In this document: in pieces, positions 2,743-38,069 of the stretch | Layout of the letters: each line of letters begins with the position of its first letter | Position numbering within the stretch: the first letter of the stretch is position 1 | IMG/VR virus record: IMGVR_UViG_3300027759_004177 | Span: 248,001 to 312,000 of that record | Reading direction: 5' to 3' (one strand) | DNA: 64,000 bases | DNA from: a virus | Translations under genes and position numbers: made by a program | Notes under the pieces: generated by a model | The model's input: only the letters and a program-made list of their open reading frames with translations | Database searches by the model: none | Told to the model about the DNA's origin: nothing

Positions 2743-5505
2743 TTAGTTGCGACCAACTGCTATTTCTATAACTGCTTTGGTAGCACTTGGGAAATCACAC
2801 AAGGCTTTGCCAATCACTTGTCCTATCAGTGGATTTTCACTGGCTTTGGCATAACCAAATCCGGCACTGACCATCAAATCTCCCTTGCAAACTGGACCAA
2901 TTACATTACAAGGAACACGTCCTTGTAGTGCCACTGGAACTACGTTTGTACCGGTTAGGCCGCCATTCATCAAGTGTGCTGGGTTTGTACTTACTACACC
3001 GGCCACTGCTCGTGTTTCTACATCGGCTTGGGTAACTTCTGCGGCTCCACCAAACATGACCACAGTACCGGGAGCATAGGCTTTGTCTGCTTGATAGTTT
3101 TCTGCCAAGTCAGCGTATTTGGCCTGTGTTGACACACCATAGAATGTACTCCACCAACTGCTTACACTACCTAAATTGTATGTCAAGTTGGCTGTGGGCA
3201 CAATACTTCCTGTGATGGTCATTTCGCCGCCAACATACAATTTGCCACCAATACCAACGCCACCTGCTACAATCAATGCACCACTTGTGGTACTGGTTGA
3301 TACTGTACTGTTGGCCAGCATCAATGAACCAGCATACAAGTTACCTGCTGTTGATCCGGCAAAGTTGGCTGTTATATTTGGTTTGGTGGTTAATCCGTCA
3401 AAGACACGCACTGACTTTGTTATGCTGTCTCTAACAACACCAAAATACTTGGTTGTACCACTGACGTATTGTCCAACAATACCAATGTCTTGACTGTCGC
3501 CGGGGTTGGCATTGGCCAAGAAGCTGATTGGATTTTCAATGACCAGGGTGCTTGTACTTGTTGTTGATCCGGTGCCGCCAATTGTGATATTACCTTGCAA
3601 GTTAAAATTACCACCCACATACAAGTTGCCTTGCAGTCCAACACCACCGTTGACCCGTAGAGCACCTGTTGTGGTGCTGGTTGCTGTGGTAGCAATGTTG
3701 ACTTCCACACCGGCTGGACGACCTGCACGACTTTGTCCAACAATTCGCATACGCTCGTTGCCGGCCACAAAACCGTCGGTAGCAAACACAATGTCGTTGG
3801 TTTGGCCATATTCGCTGGTGGCGATGACCAATTCTCCGTCACCTGTGGTTCCTGCCGGAGCACTCATAAACAAGTAACCGTCATCGGCGCCGGTGATACC
3901 AAACGCAGCGGTATTAAATGTTTCTGACGTGATACCCATGTCTATCCAACCTGACTCATTGTCACCGTTGGAAGCGTAGGCAATGATGTCAGTTGAAGCA
4001 TCGGCACCCGAGTTGAAGTTTTTAATAGCCACTTGAACAAAGTCATCAGCGTTGCCGGTCAACACAGTTGACGCATTGGTTAGTCCTGAATTGGGTTGAT
4101 ATATTACTCTACCACTGGGTTGACTTGTAGCAGTTGTTCCTGATGTACCACGTGTGATTCCAGTGAACTGTGTTGACGTTTTGCTGGTGTAGTACATGAG
4201 TTCTGTGCCAGCATACAAGGCGCCGTGTACCAAGAATCCTGCGGTACTGTTTACAGTAAGTGTGGTTGCTGTGGTGTTGGCTGTGCTACTTATTGTGGCT
4301 GTAACGTTGGCGTCAACGATTAAGGCCTTGGCACCTGCGCCTTGATAAATGGCACCATTTTGTGATACCAAGTTACCTGTGACATTTAATCCGTCGCCGT
4401 TGATGAATCGTCCTTGTATTGCACCAGTGGCAAATCCACCTGCGGAGAACACAATGTCGCCACGAGCGCCATCAGCTGTGGCAAGGACTAAGTTACCACC
4501 AGTTGGGGTAGTGTTGGCGTAGGCAGGAGCACTTAGAAAAATATATCCGTCACCGGCCTTGGTCACAGCAAATGCAGGATCTGTAAAGGTGGTACTGCAA
4601 ACACCCATGTCAATGAAGCCGTTGTCATTGTCTGAACGATCGGCATAGGCAATAAAGTCTGTGCTGGCACTGATACCAGAATTACGATTGTGCAGGGCCA
4701 CTTGAGCAAATGAGTTGATATTGCCGGTAAACAAGGCAGCCGGATCTGTGATTGCTGCAACTGCTTCAAATTCTTTAGCCAAGGGTCCTTGGTAAATGGT
4801 TCCGCCATTGGCCACCAAGTTACCTGTGATATATAAACCGTCATCCTTTTTAAAACGACCTTGTTCTGTACTTGCACCAGCGGAGAATCCGTTGGCCGCA
4901 AACACAATATCGCCAAATACACCATCGGCTGTGGCTAAAACTAAGTTACCACCTGTAGGTGTGGAGTTGGCATAAATTGGCGCACTTAAAAAGATATATC
5001 CGTCGCCGGCCTTGGTCACTGCGTAAGTAGGATCACTAAACAGGCTACTGGCAATACCCATGTCAATGAAACCACCGGTATTGGTTCCTCTATCAGAATA
5101 GGCAATGAAATCGCTTGATGCACTGGTTCCCGAACTGCGGTTGGTCAATGCACTTTGAACAAATGCGTTGGCTGATTTGGCACCAATACCAATGGTATCT
5201 GTTAAGGCACCACTGGTTACAAATGCATCTGCTGTGTTGTCTGGACTAAAACTCAAATTACCACGCAGGCTGGTCAAAGCACCAGTCATTGTGTGTTCTA
5301 TGCCGTTGTCAATTTTGAATGTGATATTACTACCAGATCCAGTGTCTGTGATTGTGATTGACGAATCATTTTTGGCAATTTGGCTTACACCAACGTTACC
5401 AGTGATGTTTACGTCACCTGATGTGTTGATTGATCCTGTTGTTGCATCAATCGTTAGCGGTCCTACTGTAAGACCGTTGCGTACTACAAAGTTTCCGTTT
5501 GCCAT
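2743..5505 (-). CDS. Large modular virion structural protein with triplicated domain
   Basis: This 920-residue surface/fibre-like protein contains three diverged copies of a domain of about 120 residues, starting near residues 115, 266 and 485. Each copy is recognisable by FxQ-A-xxNxxSG, DFIAYxDR or DIIAYAS, and G(F/W)IDMG. Two GAL-x-VxGGVG-x-x-GxLYVGG modules follow near residues 625 and 765. The last 120 residues begin with AKYADLAENY, then a PGTVVMFGG segment. That arrangement recurs at the C-terminus of T4-type cyanophage structural proteins (family knowledge). It ends just before an intrinsic terminator and lies 30 bases after the preceding fibre gene. The function is unknown beyond virion structure; adhesion is inferred. 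Confidence 0.75.
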   Translation of the reverse strand: MANGNFVVRNGLTVGPLTIDATTGSINTSGDVNITGNVGVSQIAKNDSSITITDTGSGSNITFKIDNGIEHTMTGALTSLRGNLSFSPDNTADAFVTSGALTDTIGIGAKSANAFVQSALTNRSSGTSASSDFIAYSDRGTNTGGFIDMGIASSLFSDPTYAVTKAGDGYIFLSAPIYANSTPTGGNLVLATADGVFGDIVFAANGFSAGASTEQGRFKKDDGLYITGNLVANGGTIYQGPLAKEFEAVAAITDPAALFTGNINSFAQVALHNRNSGISASTDFIAYADRSDNDNGFIDMGVCSTTFTDPAFAVTKAGDGYIFLSAPAYANTTPTGGNLVLATADGARGDIVFSAGGFATGAIQGRFINGDGLNVTGNLVSQNGAIYQGAGAKALIVDANVTATISSTANTTATTLTVNSTAGFLVHGALYAGTELMYYTSKTSTQFTGITRGTSGTTATSQPSGRVIYQPNSGLTNASTVLTGNADDFVQVAIKNFNSGADASTDIIAYASNGDNESGWIDMGITSETFNTAAFGITGADDGYLFMSAPAGTTGDGELVIATSEYGQTNDIVFATDGFVAGNERMRIVGQSRAGRPAGVEVNIATTATSTTTGALRVNGGVGLQGNLYVGGNFNLQGNITIGGTGSTTSTSTLVIENPISFLANANPGDSQDIGIVGQYVSGTTKYFGVVRDSITKSVRVFDGLTTKPNITANFAGSTAGNLYAGSLMLANSTVSTSTTSGALIVAGGVGIGGKLYVGGEMTITGSIVPTANLTYNLGSVSSWWSTFYGVSTQAKYADLAENYQADKAYAPGTVVMFGGAAEVTQADVETRAVAGVVSTNPAHLMNGGLTGTNVVPVALQGRVPCNVIGPVCKGDLMVSAGFGYAKASENPLIGQVIGKALCDFPSATKAVIEIAVGRN

Positions 5506-5535
5506 AGTTCCATATCTCCCTGTTGGCTATTTCTA

Positions 5536-7584
5536 TTAAATCGCTTGATACACTGAGTCAACTCTGACTATGGTGTTCGAATTTGTTGTGTTTCCGTACA
5601 ATATTAAATTTCCACTTACAATATTTGCTGTAAAATTAGTTAATGTATTACCAGCGGTACAAATTACACCATAGGTACTGATTGTGGGCGTAGTTCCGTT
5701 GTGTACAGCTAATATTTTTGCCACTTCTCTAATACTGGTGTTTCTAATGGTTGATGTTATTGTGTATTCAGCACTACTGTATGTGTTTGCAAAGAAGTAA
5801 TCAATAGGTGTGTCAACATTATCAATAACGATTGTTGTATTGCCTTTGACATTGACTTCAGCGCCAGATGTGTTCCACTGAGTGGTTGTGACCAATGAAG
5901 ATGTGCCTGTACCAATGTATACTCCGTCGTTGTCAACAGATACTTGCATAAAACCATTAGTACTGGCAATCTGTGTCACTGTTGAAGTTGTTGATAATCT
6001 GCGTACATCAATCAAGTCGCCAACAGCTGGAGCTTCAGTAAATGTTAGCGTTGCGCCTGACACTGAGTAAGCTGTGGTTGGTATTTGTAAAACACCGTTA
6101 ATTGCAACCACTGTGGCAGCTGTGGTACTGGTGCCAGCCATAGTAAAGGCCACTGTGGTTCCATCGCCGTTGAATGTTTCGCTGGTGATAACAGTAAACT
6201 GTGTGGTCAATGCTACCCAGGCTGAAGCACCGTAGTATTCTAATCCGTTATTGGTTGTGTTGTAGCGGAACATACCAGTGACATCTGTGCCGCCGGCACT
6301 ACTTGGACGTTGAGCACTGGTACCAACCGGTAACAGGATAGAATCTGTACTGTAAATTTGTAATTTAGCACCAGTAACCACGTTGGCTTGTACGGCGCTG
6401 TTACCAATAACCACTGCATCGTATGTGGCGTTGGGTCTGGCCCAGATCAAGGTCTCGTCGTTTTTGCCTTTGACTTTGAAGTCTTGTCCGGCAGTTTTTG
6501 TACTATTAATTGTAACACTATTGCCCAAAAATACGTTGCCTGCAACACCTAATCCACCAGCGGTTCTAACAGCGCCGGTAGTTGCACTGGTACTGTTTGT
6601 GGTGTTGGCTGAGAAGAACTCGCCTGCCTTGACGGTACCGTAAGATGTGCCTGTGAATACATTAGAAGATTCTGTACCAGCACCGTAAAATTCTAAAAAT
6701 TTAGTACTATTGGAACGACCCAAGAATGCATGTCCATCTACACCATCGTAGTAGTGGAACTTGATACCAATGTCTTTGCCGTCATCCACTGACCACGGTG
6801 CTAAGTTAGCAGTGGTATGCAAATTGATCACAGCATCTTGTACTGTCAAGTCTGCTGTACCAATTGTGGTACTTGCACCCAATACTATCAGGTTGCCAGT
6901 AATTACAGCGTTGCCAGTTAAGTTAAAGCTGCCGCCTACGTTCAAGTTGCCACTTATACCAGTTCCGCCCACCACTGTCAGTGCGCCAATTGATGTGCTG
7001 GTACTTTCTGTGCCACTGTGTGCTACTAGATTTCCGCCTACTTTGGTGATGCCGCCAATGTTGACAGCTCCGCCAATGCCTGTGCCACCTGTGACTACTA
7101 GTGCGCCATTGGTTGTGCTAGTAGATGCTTTGCTGTCACGTATAGTTGCGGTATTGGCTGTGATATTACCAATGATTAGATTGGCAAAGCCCGAATTGTT
7201 AACTGTACCGGTGGTTGTACCAGTTTCTGTGGTCATTACACCTTCAAAAGCTGTTTCGCTTTCGCGCCAGACCCAAGCAGCATTGACAGAACCATACGGA
7301 GCAAGACTGCTTAAATTACGATTGATCAGCATACCAATGTCATATGTTGGTGAGCTGGTGTAGTTGTTGTTGAACACAACGATTGGATCGTTGATGTAGG
7401 TGTTGATCGAATTTAACTGTGCAAAGCTGTTGGCCACAGTTAGATTACCAAGAATGGTAACGTTAGAATTTAGTGTTAAGTTAGCGTTAAACTTGCTACC
7501 AACCAAGGTTCCATCTTTGAGTTTTTGATACTCGATGGTATTGTCTGTGACTTGGTTATTTTTAATTCTTGTTAAAATCGTCAT
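5536..7584 (-). CDS. Modular tail fibre-like virion structural protein
   Basis: This 682-residue protein starts with ATG at 7584, 32 bases downstream of a late-promoter motif. Modules in order: an N-terminal anchoring segment; an INDPIVVFNN / DIGMLINR module (about 70-120); two GALxVxGGTGIxGxxNxGG repeats (about 155-225); a block of about 100 residues with NLHTTANLAPWSVDDGKDIG and HYYDGVDGHAFLGR; a third GG repeat; and an NGVLQIPTTAYSVSG-type module near residue 500. The HYYDGVD block and the NGVLQ module are shared with the next gene upstream (7733-9463), which indicates duplication or recombination among the fibre genes. No enzymatic motif is seen. The structural role is inferred from composition and context. 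Confidence 0.7.
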   Translation of the reverse strand: MTILTRIKNNQVTDNTIEYQKLKDGTLVGSKFNANLTLNSNVTILGNLTVANSFAQLNSINTYINDPIVVFNNNYTSSPTYDIGMLINRNLSSLAPYGSVNAAWVWRESETAFEGVMTTETGTTTGTVNNSGFANLIIGNITANTATIRDSKASTSTTNGALVVTGGTGIGGAVNIGGITKVGGNLVAHSGTESTSTSIGALTVVGGTGISGNLNVGGSFNLTGNAVITGNLIVLGASTTIGTADLTVQDAVINLHTTANLAPWSVDDGKDIGIKFHYYDGVDGHAFLGRSNSTKFLEFYGAGTESSNVFTGTSYGTVKAGEFFSANTTNSTSATTGAVRTAGGLGVAGNVFLGNSVTINSTKTAGQDFKVKGKNDETLIWARPNATYDAVVIGNSAVQANVVTGAKLQIYSTDSILLPVGTSAQRPSSAGGTDVTGMFRYNTTNNGLEYYGASAWVALTTQFTVITSETFNGDGTTVAFTMAGTSTTAATVVAINGVLQIPTTAYSVSGATLTFTEAPAVGDLIDVRRLSTTSTVTQIASTNGFMQVSVDNDGVYIGTGTSSLVTTTQWNTSGAEVNVKGNTTIVIDNVDTPIDYFFANTYSSAEYTITSTIRNTSIREVAKILAVHNGTTPTISTYGVICTAGNTLTNFTANIVSGNLILYGNTTNSNTIVRVDSVYQAI

Positions 7585-12792: not shown

Positions 12793-12813
12793 TCTAGTAT
12801 CCTGTTTATAGTG

Positions 12814-12821
12814 TATTTATG
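12814..12821 (-). promoter_or_regulatory. Late-promoter-like motif (CATAAATA)
   Basis: On the minus strand this reads CATAAATA, one mismatch from TATAAATA. It lies about 22 bases upstream of the 12792 start, immediately after the terminator at 12845-12871, matching the terminator-then-late-promoter arrangement seen at 2681-2719. Confidence 0.5.
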
Positions 12822-12844
12822 AGCGGTAAAACTTTGCCAAGTTC

Positions 12845-12871
12845 AAAAAAATAGCAGCCGAAGCTGCTATT
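12845..12871 (-). terminator. Rho-independent terminator with UUCG loop
   Basis: A perfect nine-base stem AATAGCAGC / GCTGCTATT is closed by CGAA on the plus strand. On the minus strand this is a C(UUCG)G extra-stable tetraloop followed by a T run. It lies 19 bases past the stop of the gene ending at 12890. Confidence 0.9.
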
Positions 12872-12889
12872 CTTATCAATCAAATTTGA

Positions 12890-13393
12890 TTAATGTGCAA
12901 CAATGTTAGCAAATGAGCTAGTAGCTACTTGACTGTTGTGCTTGTAACGCATTTTGTTACCGGCTTGATCATATACGTGTTTTGTAGTGATACGACTGGC
13001 ATAAAAAGCTGTGTTACTTGTGGTATAGCCAGTAATGGTCATTGTACTTGCACCAGATGCAGGGGCAGAGTTTGCTGCATCTGCGCCAGCGGCCAGTGTA
13101 CATACAGTAACACTAGCATTGCTGTGTGTTGCGCCGTTAACAGCGCCAACAGCGTTAGCAACCAAAAATTGCTCTGAACCTTTTTGTCTGATGATGTAAG
13201 CATTGGCATGCAATACGCCAGCTGCTGTACGAAATTGAACCTTGATAGTTTTAACACCTGTGCTGGTCACCCACTGTGGGACACCGCCAACACCACCAAA
13301 GTAATTTGAAGTTCCTACTGTACTACCAGTGATGCGTTGGTCTGATAGTGTACCGTCTGTTTGCTTGTGAGCAATTTTTAATCCGCGTGCCAT
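12890..13393 (-). CDS. Abundant-type virion structural protein, single-gene unit
   Basis: This 167-residue protein (MARGLKIAHKQTDGTLSDQR...) is rich in Ala, Thr, Ser and Val with no catalytic motif. It has a predicted beta-rich core (VKTIKVQFRTAAGVLHANAY, then ASTMTITGYTTSN) and a C-terminal basic segment with KMRYKHNSQ. It is the only gene between a late-promoter motif (13464-13471) and a strong terminator (12845-12871), so it is its own transcription unit. That arrangement would suit a protein needed in many copies, such as a head-decoration or tail-surface protein. This is inference from context only; the family was not recognised. Confidence 0.65.
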   Translation of the reverse strand: MARGLKIAHKQTDGTLSDQRITGSTVGTSNYFGGVGGVPQWVTSTGVKTIKVQFRTAAGVLHANAYIIRQKGSEQFLVANAVGAVNGATHSNASVTVCTLAAGADAANSAPASGASTMTITGYTTSNTAFYASRITTKHVYDQAGNKMRYKHNSQVATSSFANIVAH

Positions 13394-13432
13394 TTTGTTT
13401 CTCCTGTTTTAGCGTTCTAGGCTACTCAAGGT

Positions 13433-13451
13433 AGGCTTACCTGAGAGTTTC
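13433..13451 (-). other. 5' UTR hairpin upstream of the 167-residue structural gene
   Basis: The near-palindrome CTCAAGGTAGGCTTACCTGAG gives a stem with one bulge. It would lie at the very 5' end of a transcript started from the late promoter at 13464-13471. It could protect the message or mark the leader. No T run follows, so it is not a good terminator. Confidence 0.4.
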
Positions 13452-13463
13452 ATACGAACAAAG

Positions 13464-13471
13464 TATTTATC
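13464..13471 (-). promoter_or_regulatory. T4-type late promoter (GATAAATA)
   Basis: The minus-strand motif GATAAATA lies about 70 bases before the start at 13393 and overlaps the last codons of the SGNH hydrolase gene ending at 13467. It is the same variant as at 2681, 7616, 38090 and 57489. Confidence 0.6.
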
Positions 13472-14348
13472 CAATTTGGGTATAAACATATTCGGCCCAT
13501 AGCCGATGTCCTGCAGGATTGGGGTGGCAAGTGCTGCCTTTGAGATTGTACGGGCTGTCTCCCAAGAATCTCCAGCGTGTGCCTACACGTTCCATGATAT
13601 CTAAAAACTCGGCTTTGCGTTCGGGATTTTGTACAATGTATTTTTTTGTTAAAGGATCTATGCTCATCTGTCCTATAAAAGGTACAGGCTGTTGATAGTT
13701 GTCAAAGTTAAAGCGATCTTGTATCACATCACACCAAGTCTTTTCCAACAGCAACGGACTAGAAACGCCGGGCCAAAAATCTGTAAATGCTCGACCAACA
13801 TGTGCCGACACCGCAGGTAAATTTTTAAAATAAGTTTCTAAGTTAAGTAGTAAGTATTGTTCTACTTGACGCAAAAATGTTTCAATGGTGTCACTGGCTT
13901 GCCACATTTGCTGATATGGCTCTTCAACACGTATTCTTCTAGTGTATTCTGCTTCGCGAAGATCTTCTGTTAGTGTTACTATCACATAGATTTTTTTATA
14001 ATCAGCTTGTTGAATAAATGGCTGTAGGTCTTGTAGTTTTTCCAGCATCCAATAATTACTGCAACCCGGTCTAGCTAGATTAACCCAGTCTGCGTCAAGT
14101 AGACGACTAAGATGTCTACCTGCTATCTGCTCTTGTCTACAAGGGTCATTGCTGGACTTGTCCCAATCTATTGTGCCCAAATGGTCGCCCCAGGTCCAAC
14201 TATCTCCGACCATGACCAATAAGGTGTCTCGTCCTTGTATATCTTCTTCGTACCACTGCCGATAGCTGTGTATATTATCAGGACTCCAGTCGGTATGCCT
14301 GTGATCAATGCTTTCTTCAAAGCCAAGTGTGTGATAAAATTTAAACAT
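13467..14348 (-). CDS. SGNH/GDSL-type hydrolase (second of pair)
   Basis: This 293-residue protein shows the blocks of the SGNH hydrolase fold. Block I is MVGDSWTWGDH near residue 47, with the nucleophilic Ser. A Gly/Asn block (ARPGCSNYWMLEKL) lies near residue 95. A C-terminal block V, CHPNPAGHRLW near residue 277, carries the catalytic His. Family members are esterases or deacetylases acting on acyl groups of glycans and lipids; the substrate here is unknown. Its ATG lies inside the last codons of the glycosyltransferase-like gene (eight-base overlap), so the three genes 16015-13467 form one operon. It is probably an accessory gene acting on host or virion glycans. The fold assignment is strong; the function is inferred. 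Confidence 0.8.
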   Translation of the reverse strand: MFKFYHTLGFEESIDHRHTDWSPDNIHSYRQWYEEDIQGRDTLLVMVGDSWTWGDHLGTIDWDKSSNDPCRQEQIAGRHLSRLLDADWVNLARPGCSNYWMLEKLQDLQPFIQQADYKKIYVIVTLTEDLREAEYTRRIRVEEPYQQMWQASDTIETFLRQVEQYLLLNLETYFKNLPAVSAHVGRAFTDFWPGVSSPLLLEKTWCDVIQDRFNFDNYQQPVPFIGQMSIDPLTKKYIVQNPERKAEFLDIMERVGTRWRFLGDSPYNLKGSTCHPNPAGHRLWAEYVYTQIG

Positions 14349-15327
14349 TGTAAAGTGCTAGTATCCTGGTATCATACTTGATGGTGTTGATACACGCTTG
14401 ATTGTGTAAAAATATTTCTTGATTGTGTTTGTATAGAGTTGGCAAATCTTGCGACATTAATCGTTGAAATTCCGCAGTCAGTGCGGCAAATCTTTGTTGC
14501 GGATCAGTTATGCTGTCAAACCCGTAGTCTACACCTGCGGGCATTTTGAACCCCATATCTACTAGTCTTGCAATGGTACCTGGATTACTAAATGGTAAAA
14601 TAATGTGTCCTTTGATCAGTGGCTCAAATGTTTTTTCTGTGATGTGTATCAAGTCGTCGCGTAAAAAATTACTTTCACAATAGATGCTGACATAGCTGTC
14701 TAAATAAAATGTATTGGGTACGGGCTGAAATGCTCCTATTATGTCTTGCCCTTCTACTGTAATACCACGACTACGATTACTCACATATCCATAGTCAAGG
14801 TCTTTGACAAATTCATACAGGTTGGTTCTGTAGCTGAACTCCCGCCCGGTCATACTTAAAAACTTTTTTGCTTTGGGTCGATCAAAATCCAATTGGGGTA
14901 TTTGATATGCAGCCGGACCACTGTAATGGTGCAGGTATAACTTGTCGTGCGGAACTGTTTCCGTATAATAACTGCGATATCGATTCCACATAAAATCCCA
15001 AGACACAATGTCTACGTTGGCTAATTTTAGTTTGAGACTTTGATTTACTGTAAGGTAAACACGATGCGGATGATCAAAGTTACTAACAAACTCACAAAAT
15101 TTAGTGTGTTCGTAATCTCCAGTGTTGACTAAATCATAAAAAATAATTGTTCGACTTGCTCTGGCACGGTTGGTGTATATAGCTAACCACTCTGAGTCAT
15201 GTCTGTTATAGTGGTCAACCAGCGGCCAAAATAAAATCTGCGGATCGAACGTGTTAGCGTTAAGCCCAAGCAATTTAAGATGGTATGGTAAGTCGTCGCC
15301 TTCAATCCCGCGGATATTTTTGATCAT
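14341..15327 (-). CDS. Glycosyltransferase-like protein
   Basis: This 328-residue protein has a C-terminal half with ITEKTFEPLIKGHIILPFSN, then GTIARLVDMGF and YGFDSITDPQQRF. That is the sugar-nucleotide-binding pattern (E-K-x-x-x-P-L-x-x-G-x-x-x-x-P, then LxxxGF) seen in exostosin-like and fucosyltransferase-like GT-B proteins carried by environmental phages. The N-terminal half is not recognised. It overlaps the upstream SGNH gene by 26 bases and the downstream SGNH gene by eight bases, so the three are translationally linked. The donor and acceptor sugars are unknown. It could modify the virion or host lipopolysaccharide. Confidence 0.6.
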   Translation of the reverse strand: MIKNIRGIEGDDLPYHLKLLGLNANTFDPQILFWPLVDHYNRHDSEWLAIYTNRARASRTIIFYDLVNTGDYEHTKFCEFVSNFDHPHRVYLTVNQSLKLKLANVDIVSWDFMWNRYRSYYTETVPHDKLYLHHYSGPAAYQIPQLDFDRPKAKKFLSMTGREFSYRTNLYEFVKDLDYGYVSNRSRGITVEGQDIIGAFQPVPNTFYLDSYVSIYCESNFLRDDLIHITEKTFEPLIKGHIILPFSNPGTIARLVDMGFKMPAGVDYGFDSITDPQQRFAALTAEFQRLMSQDLPTLYKHNQEIFLHNQACINTIKYDTRILALYNV

Positions 15328-16015
15328 AAAATTCTAATAGAAGTTCAGCAATACGCCGATGGCCTGCAATGTTAGGATGAAACAGCTTGCCCGTAAAGTA
15401 TTCATTTTCTCTTATGTCAGGCAAATCATATTCTTTGCCAGTTAATGCTCGAGTAATAGTAATTGGATAAATTAGATCTTTACGCAACATGTGTCCGTAG
15501 TTGTCAGTTATCAGTTGGTCAAAATAGCTAAAGAACACGCAATCTATTTCATTGTAAAAACAAAACTGTTGAAACTGAAAAACTGTTTGCACTCCTAAAA
15601 ATTCATTGTACAAACCAGACTCCACATATCGGTATGTTTGCTGTGCATAGTCTTGCATGTGCATCACACAGTCTGGCGCTCTACCTGTAAAGTGTATGTT
15701 GCTGGTACTGTATGGTGCCTCTGATGTTATGTTTATAAACTCGTTGTCTCGATTGTTATAACTCAAATACCTAGATGGTGCCGAGAGTCCAATCATGAAA
15801 ATTAATTTATATTCTTCAAAGTTGGGATATTGTTTTATGAAATTGAATAGTTGTACTGTGGTATGTCCAATGCTGCTGGCTGGTACACCCATGTTTACAT
15901 ATTCTACACCAAGTTGGTCAGCCACATGTTTGACCCAGGGATCTTCTCTAGGAATATCTAGTTCACTGCCGAAGGTCCATGAGTCTCCAAAGGCCACCAA
16001 TAACTGTTTCTTCAT
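15302..16015 (-). CDS. SGNH/GDSL-type hydrolase (first of pair)
   Basis: This 237-residue protein begins MKKQLLVAFGDSWTFGSEL, the SGNH block I with its nucleophilic Ser at about residue 12. It has a Gly-containing block (NMGVPASSIGHT) near residue 42 and block V, LFHPNIAGHRRIAELL, near residue 212 with the catalytic His. It is diverged from the other SGNH protein of the operon, and the two flank a glycosyltransferase-like gene. It is the first gene of the minus-strand island and follows the capsid-gene terminator. A weak TGTAAATA late-like motif lies just upstream. It is probably an O-acyl esterase acting on a surface glycan; the substrate is unknown. Confidence 0.8.
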   Translation of the reverse strand: MKKQLLVAFGDSWTFGSELDIPREDPWVKHVADQLGVEYVNMGVPASSIGHTTVQLFNFIKQYPNFEEYKLIFMIGLSAPSRYLSYNNRDNEFINITSEAPYSTSNIHFTGRAPDCVMHMQDYAQQTYRYVESGLYNEFLGVQTVFQFQQFCFYNEIDCVFFSYFDQLITDNYGHMLRKDLIYPITITRALTGKEYDLPDIRENEYFTGKLFHPNIAGHRRIAELLLEFYDQKYPRD

Positions 16016-16044
16016 TATTATATTTACATGATAAAACTACAGCC

Positions 16045-16075
16045 AACAAAAAAGGCTCCGAAGAGCCTTTTTGTT
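16045..16075 (-). terminator. Rho-independent terminator after the capsid gene (bidirectional form)
   Basis: The stem AAAAAGGCTC / GAGCCTTTTT, with CGAA in the loop, reads as C(UUCG)G on the minus strand. It lies 32 bases past the gp23 stop and has T runs on both sides, so it could work in either direction. It separates the head operon from the SGNH/glycosyltransferase island. Confidence 0.9.
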
Positions 16076-16106
16076 CCTTCCCATCCCTGGGGCAGATATT
16101 CCGTTT

Positions 16107-17285
16107 TTACTGGAACGATAGGTTTGATACAGAGATCTCACCAACGTAGTCACCAGCATTACCTAGCGAAGACGCTGTGTTTGTCAACTCTACATAACCA
16201 TAACGTGTCATAAATGATACGACTGGTTCGAATGTAGATGGATCTAGTACAACACCAGAACTCATCAATGGGATATATGGGCAATAGAACGCAGCTGCAT
16301 CAGCTTCGCTTGAACCCTTATAACCAACCAATACAGCCTGACTGTCGTTTGCATAACCGTCAACATATACCTTCATTGCACCGTTCAATGTACCAACAAA
16401 CTTGGTGTTTGTAGGAGCTTCGAATGTACCTTCTGTTGTACGAGCAAATGCACTTGTTGTAGCACTTTGTAGTACTGTCAAAGCAGCTGGACTTACAACT
16501 GCCCAGTTACCAGCACCACGACGTGTACGCTGAGCGATCTTGTTAGCAACACGGTTGACTAGAACTGCCAAAGCGGCATGCTCATCACCAACGAATGTGG
16601 CTGTACCAGATACAGCAGATTGGTCATATGCTTCATCAGTAGCGGCAAGAGCACGTAGGGAACCAAGAATCTCTTGATCGATCTCTACAGTGATTTCTTG
16701 TGCTAGGGCAGCCATAATTTCTGCCTCAACATCCAAACCATGCATAGACTGTGCGTCTTGTGCAGCTTCAAATGTCCAACGAGCACTTAACTTACGTGTT
16801 TTAGCTTCTACAACTTGTTTCAAAATCTGAACGTTAATACGGTTACCAGCAACACCTTCTAGTGTACTAGTTGTATTAGCCATACCAGTAGAGTTACTAC
16901 CAGAGTATGCTGTTGCAATTTTGAATGGGCTCAATGCTTCGTCACCAGCTGTTGTGCTTGTTGCGTATGCAGATGAATCTGTAACGCTGTCAGCATAACG
17001 TACACGTAGTGTATGGATCTGAGCAACTGGACCTGTCATTGGCTGTACACCAACGATTTCGTTGGCGATAACTGTTGGCATTACACGACGGATAACTGGT
17101 AGAATTACACGGTTAAGTGTAGCTACGTTACCTGCTTGTGTAGAGCCAGCTGTTGCGTTTTCAGCCAACATTTTGCGTGTATTCTCAAGGATTACACCCA
17201 TTGTAGTTCTTTTAGAACCATTTAGACCTTCTAACAGGGCTTCTTTTGTTTCGCCCCAACGGCCTTCTAATAATGCTTGTGTCAT
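16107..17285 (-). CDS. 23: Major capsid protein gp23
   Basis: This 392-residue T4-type major capsid protein forms the hexamers of the head. Recognisable blocks are ANEIVGVQPMTGPVAQIHTL (about 75-95), a WTFEAAQDAQSMHGLDVEAE block (about 165-185), VGYKGSSEADAAAFYCPYIP (about 325-345), and the C-terminal block running SGVVLDPSTFEP to MTRYGY. It is clearly shorter than T4 gp23 (521 residues). The likely gp21 cleavage point is after Leu40-Ala41-Glu42, an LxE site just before the NATAGSTQAG segment. The start is supported by GAGGA a few bases upstream. It is last in the head operon, 24 bases after gp22, and followed by a strong terminator. Confidence 0.97.
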   Translation of the reverse strand: MTQALLEGRWGETKEALLEGLNGSKRTTMGVILENTRKMLAENATAGSTQAGNVATLNRVILPVIRRVMPTVIANEIVGVQPMTGPVAQIHTLRVRYADSVTDSSAYATSTTAGDEALSPFKIATAYSGSNSTGMANTTSTLEGVAGNRINVQILKQVVEAKTRKLSARWTFEAAQDAQSMHGLDVEAEIMAALAQEITVEIDQEILGSLRALAATDEAYDQSAVSGTATFVGDEHAALAVLVNRVANKIAQRTRRGAGNWAVVSPAALTVLQSATTSAFARTTEGTFEAPTNTKFVGTLNGAMKVYVDGYANDSQAVLVGYKGSSEADAAAFYCPYIPLMSSGVVLDPSTFEPVVSFMTRYGYVELTNTASSLGNAGDYVGEISVSNLSFQ

Positions 17286-17309
17286 AATATTCCTCTTTCC
17301 TTTTAGGGT

Positions 17310-18428
17310 TTAATTAAGCCCTGCTAAACGTTTCATTTCAAACACATTGGACATTACGTCTTTTGCTTCTGAAGTTTCAACGGCAGTTTTAGCAGTTTTA
17401 TCACCAGTTACCACTTGACGACTTTCTGTTAGAACAGCAGCTTTTGGGGCCACTTCTTTAACAGAAGAGTTGTTTAGTACAGCTGGTAGATACTTTTCAT
17501 ATGCGGACTGTAGCTTATCAGTCTGCACACTCTCGAGTAGGTCACGCATGATTGCTGACTTCTCTTTGTTCAAAGGTTTCAACATTTCTGCAAGACGTTC
17601 TTTGCGTTCTGTTGATTCTTTGATAATACGAATTTCTGTTTCTTTTGATTCAACCAAAGCTTTCTTATCTTCAATTGCTGATACTGCTTCAGACAATTTC
17701 TGAGTTACCATGTCCACTGTGGATTGTAACTCACGGATTTGTTTGTTCTCATTTAAGTGAGTAACAGCAAATTCGCTTGCGAATGCTTCATATAGACGAC
17801 GACCAAACATGTTCTCGCGAGCAACTTGGATGTCTTCTTTTAGTTGAGTCAGTTCTGACTCTAACGAACTGGTTACGGCCTCTTTAACAGCCTCAGCAGA
17901 TTGTTTTACGAACTTGGCTTGTAGTTCAGCTAACTTAGCTTTACCTTCAGCGACTAGACGAACCTTAGTTTCCACTACAGCTTTCTTGTCTGCTTCAAAT
18001 TCTTTGATTTCTTCTGCCAATGCACGGATTGTAAACTGTTCAAGTTTGCTGATAGCATTCTCGTAAGTTTTACGATCTGCACGTAGTTCTTTGATTTCTT
18101 CAGCTAGTTTACTAACTAAGAAATTGTCAAACTTACTTGCACTTTCAACCATTTGCTTTTTAAATGCAACACGGTCTTCGGCTAATTGTTGTTTTTCGTC
18201 TGCGAACTCTTGCAGTTCAGCAGTGAGAGACTCTGTTACCATTTTGTCTAGAGCTTCAACCATTACTGCTTTGTCATGTTGATAACGTTGAGCAAATTCT
18301 TCGCGTAATTCTGCACGAACTTGTTCTTTGGCTTCAGTAATGCGTGATTCCCAAGCTTCAGCAATAGCTGTCTTGGTCTCTTCATTAATGATTCCGTTAT
18401 CCAACAATGGTTTGATAGCATCTAACAT
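17310..18428 (-). CDS. 22: Prohead core scaffolding protein gp22
   Basis: This 372-residue protein is almost entirely charged and heptad-like (Glu, Lys, Ala, Leu), as expected for the coiled-coil core scaffold on which the T4-type prohead assembles and which gp21 later degrades. Several LxE/IxE tripeptides, the gp21 cleavage preference, occur along the chain (for example SKLAEEI and RALAEEI). The C-terminus ends with VMSNVFEMKRLAGLN, similar in style to gp22 tails that contact the capsid. Order and spacing (gp21, then gp22, then gp23) match T4. T4 gp22 is 269 residues, so this one is longer. Confidence 0.92.
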   Translation of the reverse strand: MLDAIKPLLDNGIINEETKTAIAEAWESRITEAKEQVRAELREEFAQRYQHDKAVMVEALDKMVTESLTAELQEFADEKQQLAEDRVAFKKQMVESASKFDNFLVSKLAEEIKELRADRKTYENAISKLEQFTIRALAEEIKEFEADKKAVVETKVRLVAEGKAKLAELQAKFVKQSAEAVKEAVTSSLESELTQLKEDIQVARENMFGRRLYEAFASEFAVTHLNENKQIRELQSTVDMVTQKLSEAVSAIEDKKALVESKETEIRIIKESTERKERLAEMLKPLNKEKSAIMRDLLESVQTDKLQSAYEKYLPAVLNNSSVKEVAPKAAVLTESRQVVTGDKTAKTAVETSEAKDVMSNVFEMKRLAGLN

Positions 18429-20120: not shown

Positions 20121-20354
20121 TTACATTCCGAGAGGGGCGCCACCAGGTTCTGCAGGAGGTTGGTACTGTTTTGCCACTGCTTCCAGCTTTTTCTCGTGCT
20201 CAAGTTTACGTACATCATGAGCTTGTCTTAGCTGGTTTAGGTGTGATAGAGTCAAGCGAGTTTTACGGCTATCAGACATTTTAAGCGTACTTTGATCCGC
20301 TTTTTCATCGTGGTAGCCGTGCGGTGCTGGATCAAATAGTTCGCTAATAATCAT
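20121..20354 (-). CDS. Small basic protein between gp20 and gp21 (gp68-like position)
   Basis: This 77-residue protein has a central helix DSRKTRLTLSHLNQLRQAHDVRKLEHEKKL. The KTRLTLxHLNxLR pattern is typical of small proteins encoded between the portal and prohead protease in T4-type cyanophages, often annotated as prohead core or hypothetical. The C-terminus is Pro/Gly-rich. It lies 23 bases downstream of gp20. The function as a minor prohead core component is inferred from position. Confidence 0.6.
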   Translation of the reverse strand: MIISELFDPAPHGYHDEKADQSTLKMSDSRKTRLTLSHLNQLRQAHDVRKLEHEKKLEAVAKQYQPPAEPGGAPLGM

Positions 20355-37694: not shown

Positions 37695-38069
37695 ATGACA
37701 ATATATCGCGGATTCAGCACCAGACTCAATGCCAAAAAGTACAGACTAACTGATTTCCAATTGGCCAAACAAGACATGATCAACCACTTTGAAATACGCA
37801 AAGGTGAAAAACTCATGAACCCTGATTTTGGCAGCATAATCTGGGACATGTTGTTTGAACCCTTGACTGAAGACACCAAACAAATTATCACCAATGATAT
37901 CACACGTATTGTGAGCTACGACCCCAGACTTGCTGTGCAACAAGTAGCAGTAACCGAGCAGGACAATGGGTTTTTAATAGCAATTGATGTGGCTTATATT
38001 CCCACTGATCAAACAGAAACTATTGCTTTAAATTTTGATCGTGCCAACAATAGATTAATTACTAATTAA
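37695..38069 (+). CDS. 25: Baseplate wedge protein gp25
   Basis: This 124-residue protein of the GPW/gp25 family is an inner baseplate protein, lysozyme-like in fold but structural. Visible motifs are YRLTDFQLAKQDMINHFEIR (about 15-35), KGEKLMNPDFGSIIWDMLFE (about 36-56; the NPxFGxxIxxxLFEP core) and ITRIVSYDPRLAV (about 70-82). Length matches T4 gp25 (132). It lies between the lysozyme-like gene and gp6, in the usual T4-type order. Confidence 0.95.
   Translation: MTIYRGFSTRLNAKKYRLTDFQLAKQDMINHFEIRKGEKLMNPDFGSIIWDMLFEPLTEDTKQIITNDITRIVSYDPRLAVQQVAVTEQDNGFLIAIDVAYIPTDQTETIALNFDRANNRLITN

Follow-up and report, generated by a model that had tools for sequence, protein, structure and literature searches.

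A three-gene SGNH–glycosyltransferase–SGNH unit behind a viral capsid gene, a candidate late glycan-tailoring cassette

What might a phage gain from encoding a glycosyltransferase between two SGNH-type proteins directly behind its capsid gene? This question is raised by a three-gene island in a jumbo T4-like phage, the virus record IMGVR_UViG_3300027759_004177 (IMG/VR, 356,865 bases), of which we analysed a stretch of 64,000 nucleotides, positions 248001–312000, referred to here as the window. The open reading frames (ORFs) of the window and their translations place the island on the minus strand, with the transcription order major capsid protein (MCP), C, B and A. The first gene of the unit encodes the SGNH-fold protein C (15302..16015, 237 aa), the second the GT-B-fold glycosyltransferase B (14341..15327, 328 aa), and the third the SGNH/GDSL protein A (13467..14348, 293 aa). 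C and B overlap by 26 bases and B and A by 8 bases, in agreement with an earlier note on this DNA (the original prediction), which had described a three-gene island with overlapping ends. We tentatively read the trio, with a probability of about 40%, as a late cytoplasmic glycan-tailoring cassette whose likeliest acceptors are virion proteins.

That C, B and A form a jointly inherited, coordinated unit is well supported. All 28 contigs found with A also contain B, and 27 of them contain C in the same order; the remaining contig starts inside B. Many of these contigs are near-duplicates from sibling samples, with 18 distinct A proteins besides that of the window, and the C–B–A order is not due to chance, because it recurs in independent contigs. 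The original prediction had called for a search for the same trio in other phages and named absent linkage as grounds for refutation; the linkage was retained in these contigs. In a collection of 50,697 phage records, tblastn detected none of the three proteins at E 1e-3. The gene junctions are likewise maintained, as B and A overlap by 8 bases in 16 of 17 loci and C and B by 23–35 bases in 17 of 18, with the start codons of the relatives set by hand. Pairwise distances between the three proteins correlate (C–B 0.81, B–A 0.75 and C–A 0.62; 0 of 2000 permutations in each case). The mean identity of C, B and A is 55–61%, compared with 92% for the MCP. The ratios of nonsynonymous to synonymous substitution (dN/dS) of the trio genes are 0.035–0.213 in the computable pairs, indicating purifying selection, with some dS values above 1 or not computable.

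The outer genes encode a diverged SGNH pair within one unit, A being assigned by profile and C by predicted fold, with the motifs VGDSWTWG in A and FGDSWTFG in C. A exceeds the Pfam Lipase_GDSL cut-off (35 bits versus 23.6), and C, at 21.3 bits, lies 2.3 bits under it; a Lipase_GDSL match at E ≤ 1 was obtained for 16 of the 19 C rows. Since the A and C profiles align along approximately 85 N-terminal residues (hhalign 96.9%), the two proteins are diverged relatives. The AlphaFold2 model of C, built from a 19-sequence alignment (pLDDT, the predicted local distance difference test, 88.4), adopts an SGNH fold with VIA Z values of 15.3 for 4rsh, 15.1 for TesA and 13–15 for carbohydrate esterases, and the PatB O-acetyltransferase is among its Foldseek matches. 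The resemblance to SGNH/GDSL esterases, carbohydrate esterases and PatB-type O-acetyltransferases resides in the fold of C (Z 13–15) and in the GDS and HPN-GH motifs. A sequence search of solved structures returned two weak matches for C (best 0.036) and two unrelated ones for A, and a scan of genome contigs for bacterial relatives of A, which reaches only sequences with the short peptide patterns, matched 12 stretches, none of them a relative. Ser50 and His275 of A are invariant in 17 of 17 rows, as are Ser12 and His213 of C in 19 of 19. The loss of catalytic residues in homologues, which had been proposed as a refutation, therefore did not occur. Both proteins keep the Ser–His pair, from which hydrolysis and acyl transfer cannot be told apart.

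The middle gene encodes a GT-B glycosyltransferase, as judged by predicted fold, for which donor binding and sugar transfer are predicted. The AlphaFold2 model of B (18-sequence alignment, pLDDT 87.8) shows two domains in the GT-B arrangement, with a VIA Z of 12.2 for T4 beta-glucosyltransferase, 12.0 for the alpha-1,3-fucosyltransferase 2nzw, and about 10 for many other GT-B enzymes. The likeness to the T4 enzyme and the GT10 alpha-1,3-fucosyltransferases spans the whole model, whereas B shares just 10–13% identity with them in those rows. Rows within 1 Z count as tied, and the donor sugar thus cannot be read from the fold. The top matches of the model in BFVD are uncharacterised phage proteins (3.7e-14), with a mimivirus GT10 entry lower down. 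The best-conserved stretch of B, S.Y.ESN.....L.H.TEK...PL.KGH...P..N, contains a TEK motif that we take to resemble the GT10 motif. An assignment to CAZy GT10, suggested by fold and motif, was rejected, as PF00852 matched nothing in the genome at E ≤ 10 and none of the 18 B rows. B also had no Pfam match at E ≤ 1 and no hit at E ≤ 10 in the sequence search of solved structures. The A/C profile alignment and the models of C and B together bear out the proposed arrangement of two diverged GDSW-type hydrolase-like genes around a GT-B-like gene, and provide the structure-based family assignment suggested as a check. It is scarcely probable that B glycosylates phage DNA in the manner of T4 beta-glucosyltransferase, with the SGNH partners trimming the modified base. 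The T4 enzyme is indeed the top VIA row (12% identity), but it is tied with the fucosyltransferases, and the six B-like glycosyltransferases of the genome and the pairing with SGNH and sugar genes fit glycan building better.

The signals around the trio suggest how it may be expressed. An intrinsic terminator, composed of a UUCG-loop hairpin and a T run (16048..16069, minus strand, −9.4 kcal/mol), lies between the MCP gene and C; a hairpin with a T run is present there in 17 of 17 loci examined, and the copy in the window was missed by an automated terminator scanner. A TAAATA element (16021..16026, minus strand) stands 5 bases before the ATG of C, and TAARTA occurs 4–6 bases before this ATG in 17 of 18 loci. 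TAARTA resembles the consensus of T4-type late promoters, and T4 late transcripts begin about six bases after the promoter element. Given this start and the TAARTA–ATG spacing, a leaderless C mRNA is predicted. A second TAAATA lies over the stop codon of A (13464..13469, minus strand), facing the fibre-like genes, and recurs in 15 of 17 loci. The island is thus bounded by the capsid terminator and a late-promoter-like element, as originally described, and to judge from these elements the trio seems to be its own late unit that runs on into the next genes. The sole locus without TAARTA at C is L026, where C overlaps an extra SGNH-like gene right before it (4348-5040, 25% to C), which gives a four-gene version of the unit. 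The exceptions at the stop codon of A are L042 and L043, in which a 368-aa ORF (L042 5358-6464) with a weak ARMT1-like match below the cut-off follows A in place of the promoter-like element. TAARTA is found 4–7 bases upstream of 10 of 119 mechanically chosen gene starts versus 6 of 4492 other ATGs. The genes that start in this way are 15302-16015 (C), 20121-20354 and 37695-38069 in the window and seven genes in L176, L178 and L179. They may constitute a class with leaderless late mRNAs, of which C would be one member. A literature search on leaderless late promoters gave nothing on point, an Rfam search of 12800-17400 had no match, and the trio had no match in PADLOC.

None of the 19-residue Kyte–Doolittle windows of A, B and C averages above 0.93, and no hydrophobic segment is present; the three proteins are on this basis predicted to be soluble and cytoplasmic. 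In the mechanism that we favour, B would act in the host cytoplasm during infection and attach a sugar to an acceptor there, and C and A, as soluble SGNH-fold Ser/His enzymes, would edit acyl groups such as acetyl on this sugar or its donor, through either hydrolysis or transfer. The three genes would be expressed late and translationally coupled, and the likeliest acceptors would be virion proteins co-produced from the adjoining late genes. We infer the enzyme activities, the donor sugar, the acyl chemistry, the timing and, above all, the acceptor. A glycan-tailoring unit as such is well supported, because both the Ser/His pairs and the linkage of the trio have been kept. Accordingly, of the coordinated add-and-remove system put forward in the original prediction, the coordinated tailoring unit stood; removal is one of two options, as hydrolysis is indistinguishable from acyl transfer. 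This mechanism is supported by the location of the trio among late structural genes, by a second operon in the genome that pairs an A-like with a B-like gene, and by the sugar-nucleotide genes of the genome. A parallel is offered by the mycobacteriophages Che8 and Rita, whose glycosyltransferases have been shown, or are proposed, to modify the major capsid protein (Freeman et al. 2023, as related in part of PMC11256854). The likeness is that of phage-encoded glycosyltransferases acting on a virion protein; the phages are unrelated, the relevant passages of that account name no SGNH partners, and the acceptor of the trio is only predicted.

A different role for C and A would be that of virion-borne esterases that deacylate the host surface at adsorption, with B loosely linked. 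Precedents are the tailspike deacetylase of Aristophanes (gp41) and, in the virion of PhiPsa374, an SGNH tail-fibre protein (gp053), both of SGNH fold or family and encoded among phage structural genes, as presented in parts of PMC8471582 and PMC9796965. Those two are tailspike or tail-fibre proteins, whereas A and C are stand-alone proteins in which no fibre or anchor part can be recognised, and their coupling to B is tight, which makes this role improbable.

The points that weigh against a cassette of active enzymes acting on virion proteins concern the catalytic residues, the glycosyltransferases of other T4-like phages, and the surroundings of the trio. At −3 of the catalytic His, where Asp is usual but not universal in the SGNH/GDSL superfamily, C has an invariant Lys210 and A an invariant Ser272. 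The canonical block III Asn is not evident in either protein, and in block II A keeps PG95CSN and C has PAS, both blocks being placed by sequence only. The trio proteins differ from SGNH/GDSL esterases and PatB-type O-acetyltransferases in this replaced Asp and in belonging to a three-gene phage unit. Two SGNH proteins without hydrolase function, now serving as binding or structural partners of B, would account for these replacements; with Ser and His invariant in all rows and the genes under purifying selection, we regard this as very improbable. As for precedent, the glycosyltransferases of T4-like phages are usually taken as modifiers of host lipopolysaccharide (LPS), according to passages of PMC7029224, and those in T4-like fibre regions have been read in this way by others (PMC7029224; a table of PMC7468147). 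In keeping with this, B could act in the cytoplasm on LPS, capsule or a lipid-linked precursor whose acylation C and A would alter, so that the receptor is masked against co-infecting phages or progeny. Soluble cytoplasmic enzymes could work on lipid-linked precursors, and the sugar-nucleotide genes of the genome would serve either acceptor. A late-type layout among structural genes, however, would leave scant time for envelope turnover, and B has no membrane segment; host-envelope modification, the main rival to virion proteins as acceptors, is rather unlikely. Pelagimyophages resemble the present case in that their hypervariable fibre region is rich in glycosyltransferases, with such genes near the tail-fibre genes of T4-like phages, but PMC7029224 contains no SGNH or GDSL term, and its passages on this region describe no fixed trio.

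The surroundings of the trio gave no firm link to the fibre-like genes. Upstream, outside the unit, lies the Gp23 MCP (16107..17285, minus strand, Pfam 9.5e-99), on the head-gene side of the proposed position between fibre and head genes. On the other side, neither the first fibre-like gene (12890..13393, minus strand), of presumed function, nor any of the six tested genes downstream of the trio has a Pfam match, and the fibre label is presumptive. The named phages with the nearest capsid protein are jumbo T4-like phages (Vibrio 2.275.O 69%, PA5oct 67%, GAP32 65%, 121Q 64%), and annotated tail-fibre genes lie 1–4 kb after the MCP in PA5oct, GAP32 and 121Q. Compared with L003 and L004, nucleotide identity is 96–100% over the MCP and scaffold genes, drops at the MCP terminator to 84–94% over the trio, and is 82–96% in 400-base bins from 13,300 down to 8,500. 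The same step appears in dS against the window (MCP 0.03–0.08, trio 0.36–0.84). This step had suggested that the trio is tied to the fibre side, an interpretation that we keep as no more than a possibility. The high-identity block comprises just the MCP, scaffold and protease genes (~16.1–19.3 kb), and the portal region further upstream is also diverged (87–95% identity). When trio distances were compared with those of eight neighbouring genes (9–16 loci each), r was 0.19–0.77 for downstream genes versus 0.28–0.78 for head genes; the first downstream gene gave 0.21–0.26, not significant, and the second 0.68–0.77. The choice between host and virion glycans as the target, left open in the original prediction, thus gained a hint towards the fibre side from the identity step at the MCP end, but the correlations over more loci did not separate fibre-like from head genes. 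Because the trio distances show no clear fibre-side preference, the confidence in the favoured mechanism was lowered from 0.45 to 0.40.

In this phage group, cargo genes of various kinds occupy the place behind the MCP gene. We scanned 80 of 599 MCP loci among the matches listed and counted the 42 with at least 3 kb downstream: all three genes were present in 4, only a B-like glycosyltransferase in 2, and none in 36, and by profile none of the 42 had A or C without the others. Of the 38 loci left out for having less than 3 kb downstream, L080 and L128 had a B-like match. Other genes follow the MCP in the five named relatives inspected. On a capsid tree of 60 rows, 16 of them with the trio, at least four gains or losses are required. 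The trio occurs in one supported group (13 of 14 rows), in L028, and in L042 and L043, which pair on the tree next to the trio-less L064 and L069. This tree was built quickly, leaving 18 of 56 inner branches open and L028 weakly placed, and four changes are the minimum on it; L050, L052 and L071 were omitted because they duplicate contigs already included through L025, L033 and L043, and L053, with 2.3 kb downstream, was scored as lacking the trio. In L053, within the main trio group, the slot is filled by a gene with a NUMOD3 and a weak HNH match, and in L069 the next structural-type gene begins 139 bases after the MCP. A rescan for GDS motifs in the first nine ORFs of 58 loci revealed an ORF straight after the MCP in L076 that matches neither A nor C, indicating that unrelated SGNH-like genes can also occupy this site. 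The slot fillers of L053, L060, L105 and L120 are, respectively, a NUMOD3/HNH-type gene, a restriction-endonuclease-like protein, a TPR and GT9-like protein, and a fatty-acid desaturase; the post-MCP gene of L104 has no Pfam match.

A bolder form of the virion-acceptor proposal, which we rate as unlikely, holds that the three genes are a portable cassette, acquired and lost together, which sits where the capsid and fibre regions meet and writes sugar and acyl groups on the late structural proteins of the phage itself. In this form, two dedicated SGNH enzymes would set the acylation of a virion glycan, a viral equivalent of the O-acyl editing that cells perform on glycans. If so, virion glycosylation with acyl editing would be directly testable in jumbo T4-like phages, and the virion glycan could bear on host recognition or the exclusion of rivals. 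The folds are of known kinds, and searches of open-licence papers turned up no description of a conserved SGNH–glycosyltransferase–SGNH unit behind a capsid gene. The analysis groups into one testable unit three families that have no PHROGs match at E ≤ 0.1 and no NCBIfam match, with B lacking a Pfam match as well.

Relatives of the trio genes occur elsewhere in the genome; ten paralogues had no PHROGs match. Five further B-like glycosyltransferase stretches (E 2.1e-13 to 6.8e-9) bring the total to six, and an A-like gene (6.3e-34) lies at 214885-215649. The latter belongs to a second operon (G000:C1:213914-216670; L176 8914-11670), between a 324-aa B-like glycosyltransferase, which it overlaps by 4 bases, and a 342-aa protein, which it overlaps by 8 bases. 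This operon is whole in three further contigs and partial in a fourth, which starts inside the 342-aa gene. The A-like paralogue has DSRH where A has Ser272. The 342-aa protein carries an SEKTFKP motif and matches the B profile weakly (probability 5.8%, E 0.0066); that it is a glycosyltransferase is a guess. Four B-like glycosyltransferases remain besides B and that of the second operon, one of which, at 98–101 kb, adjoins a UDP-sugar dehydrogenase gene. The region at 320–336 kb encodes three proteins with weak similarity to C (E 8.5e-7, 4.7e-12 and 3.1e-6). The cluster there (G000:C1:320917-335773; L177) contains radical-SAM/SPASM proteins, the three SGNH-like proteins, a carbamoyltransferase, an APS-kinase-like protein, a B-like glycosyltransferase, a DegT aminotransferase and an epimerase. 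Among eight distant B-like loci, all four that are fully listed have apparent carbamoyltransferase and epimerase genes by the glycosyltransferase gene (profile-tested in L157 only), and three of these four have a GDS-motif protein near it; that of L157 has no Pfam match. Going by plain counts, glycosyltransferase and SGNH-type genes seem to occur together in these phages. A B-like glycosyltransferase stretch of L157 is part of a 591-aa protein (4654-6429), which towards its N terminus scores slightly over the cut-off for the transketolase pyrimidine-binding domain. Elsewhere in the genome, L180 contains genes for the periplasmic solute receptors DctP (TRAP type) and TctC (349-1335 and 6105-7058; G000 184349-185335 and 190105-191058), which may hint at the identity of the host or at a role in taking up nutrients.

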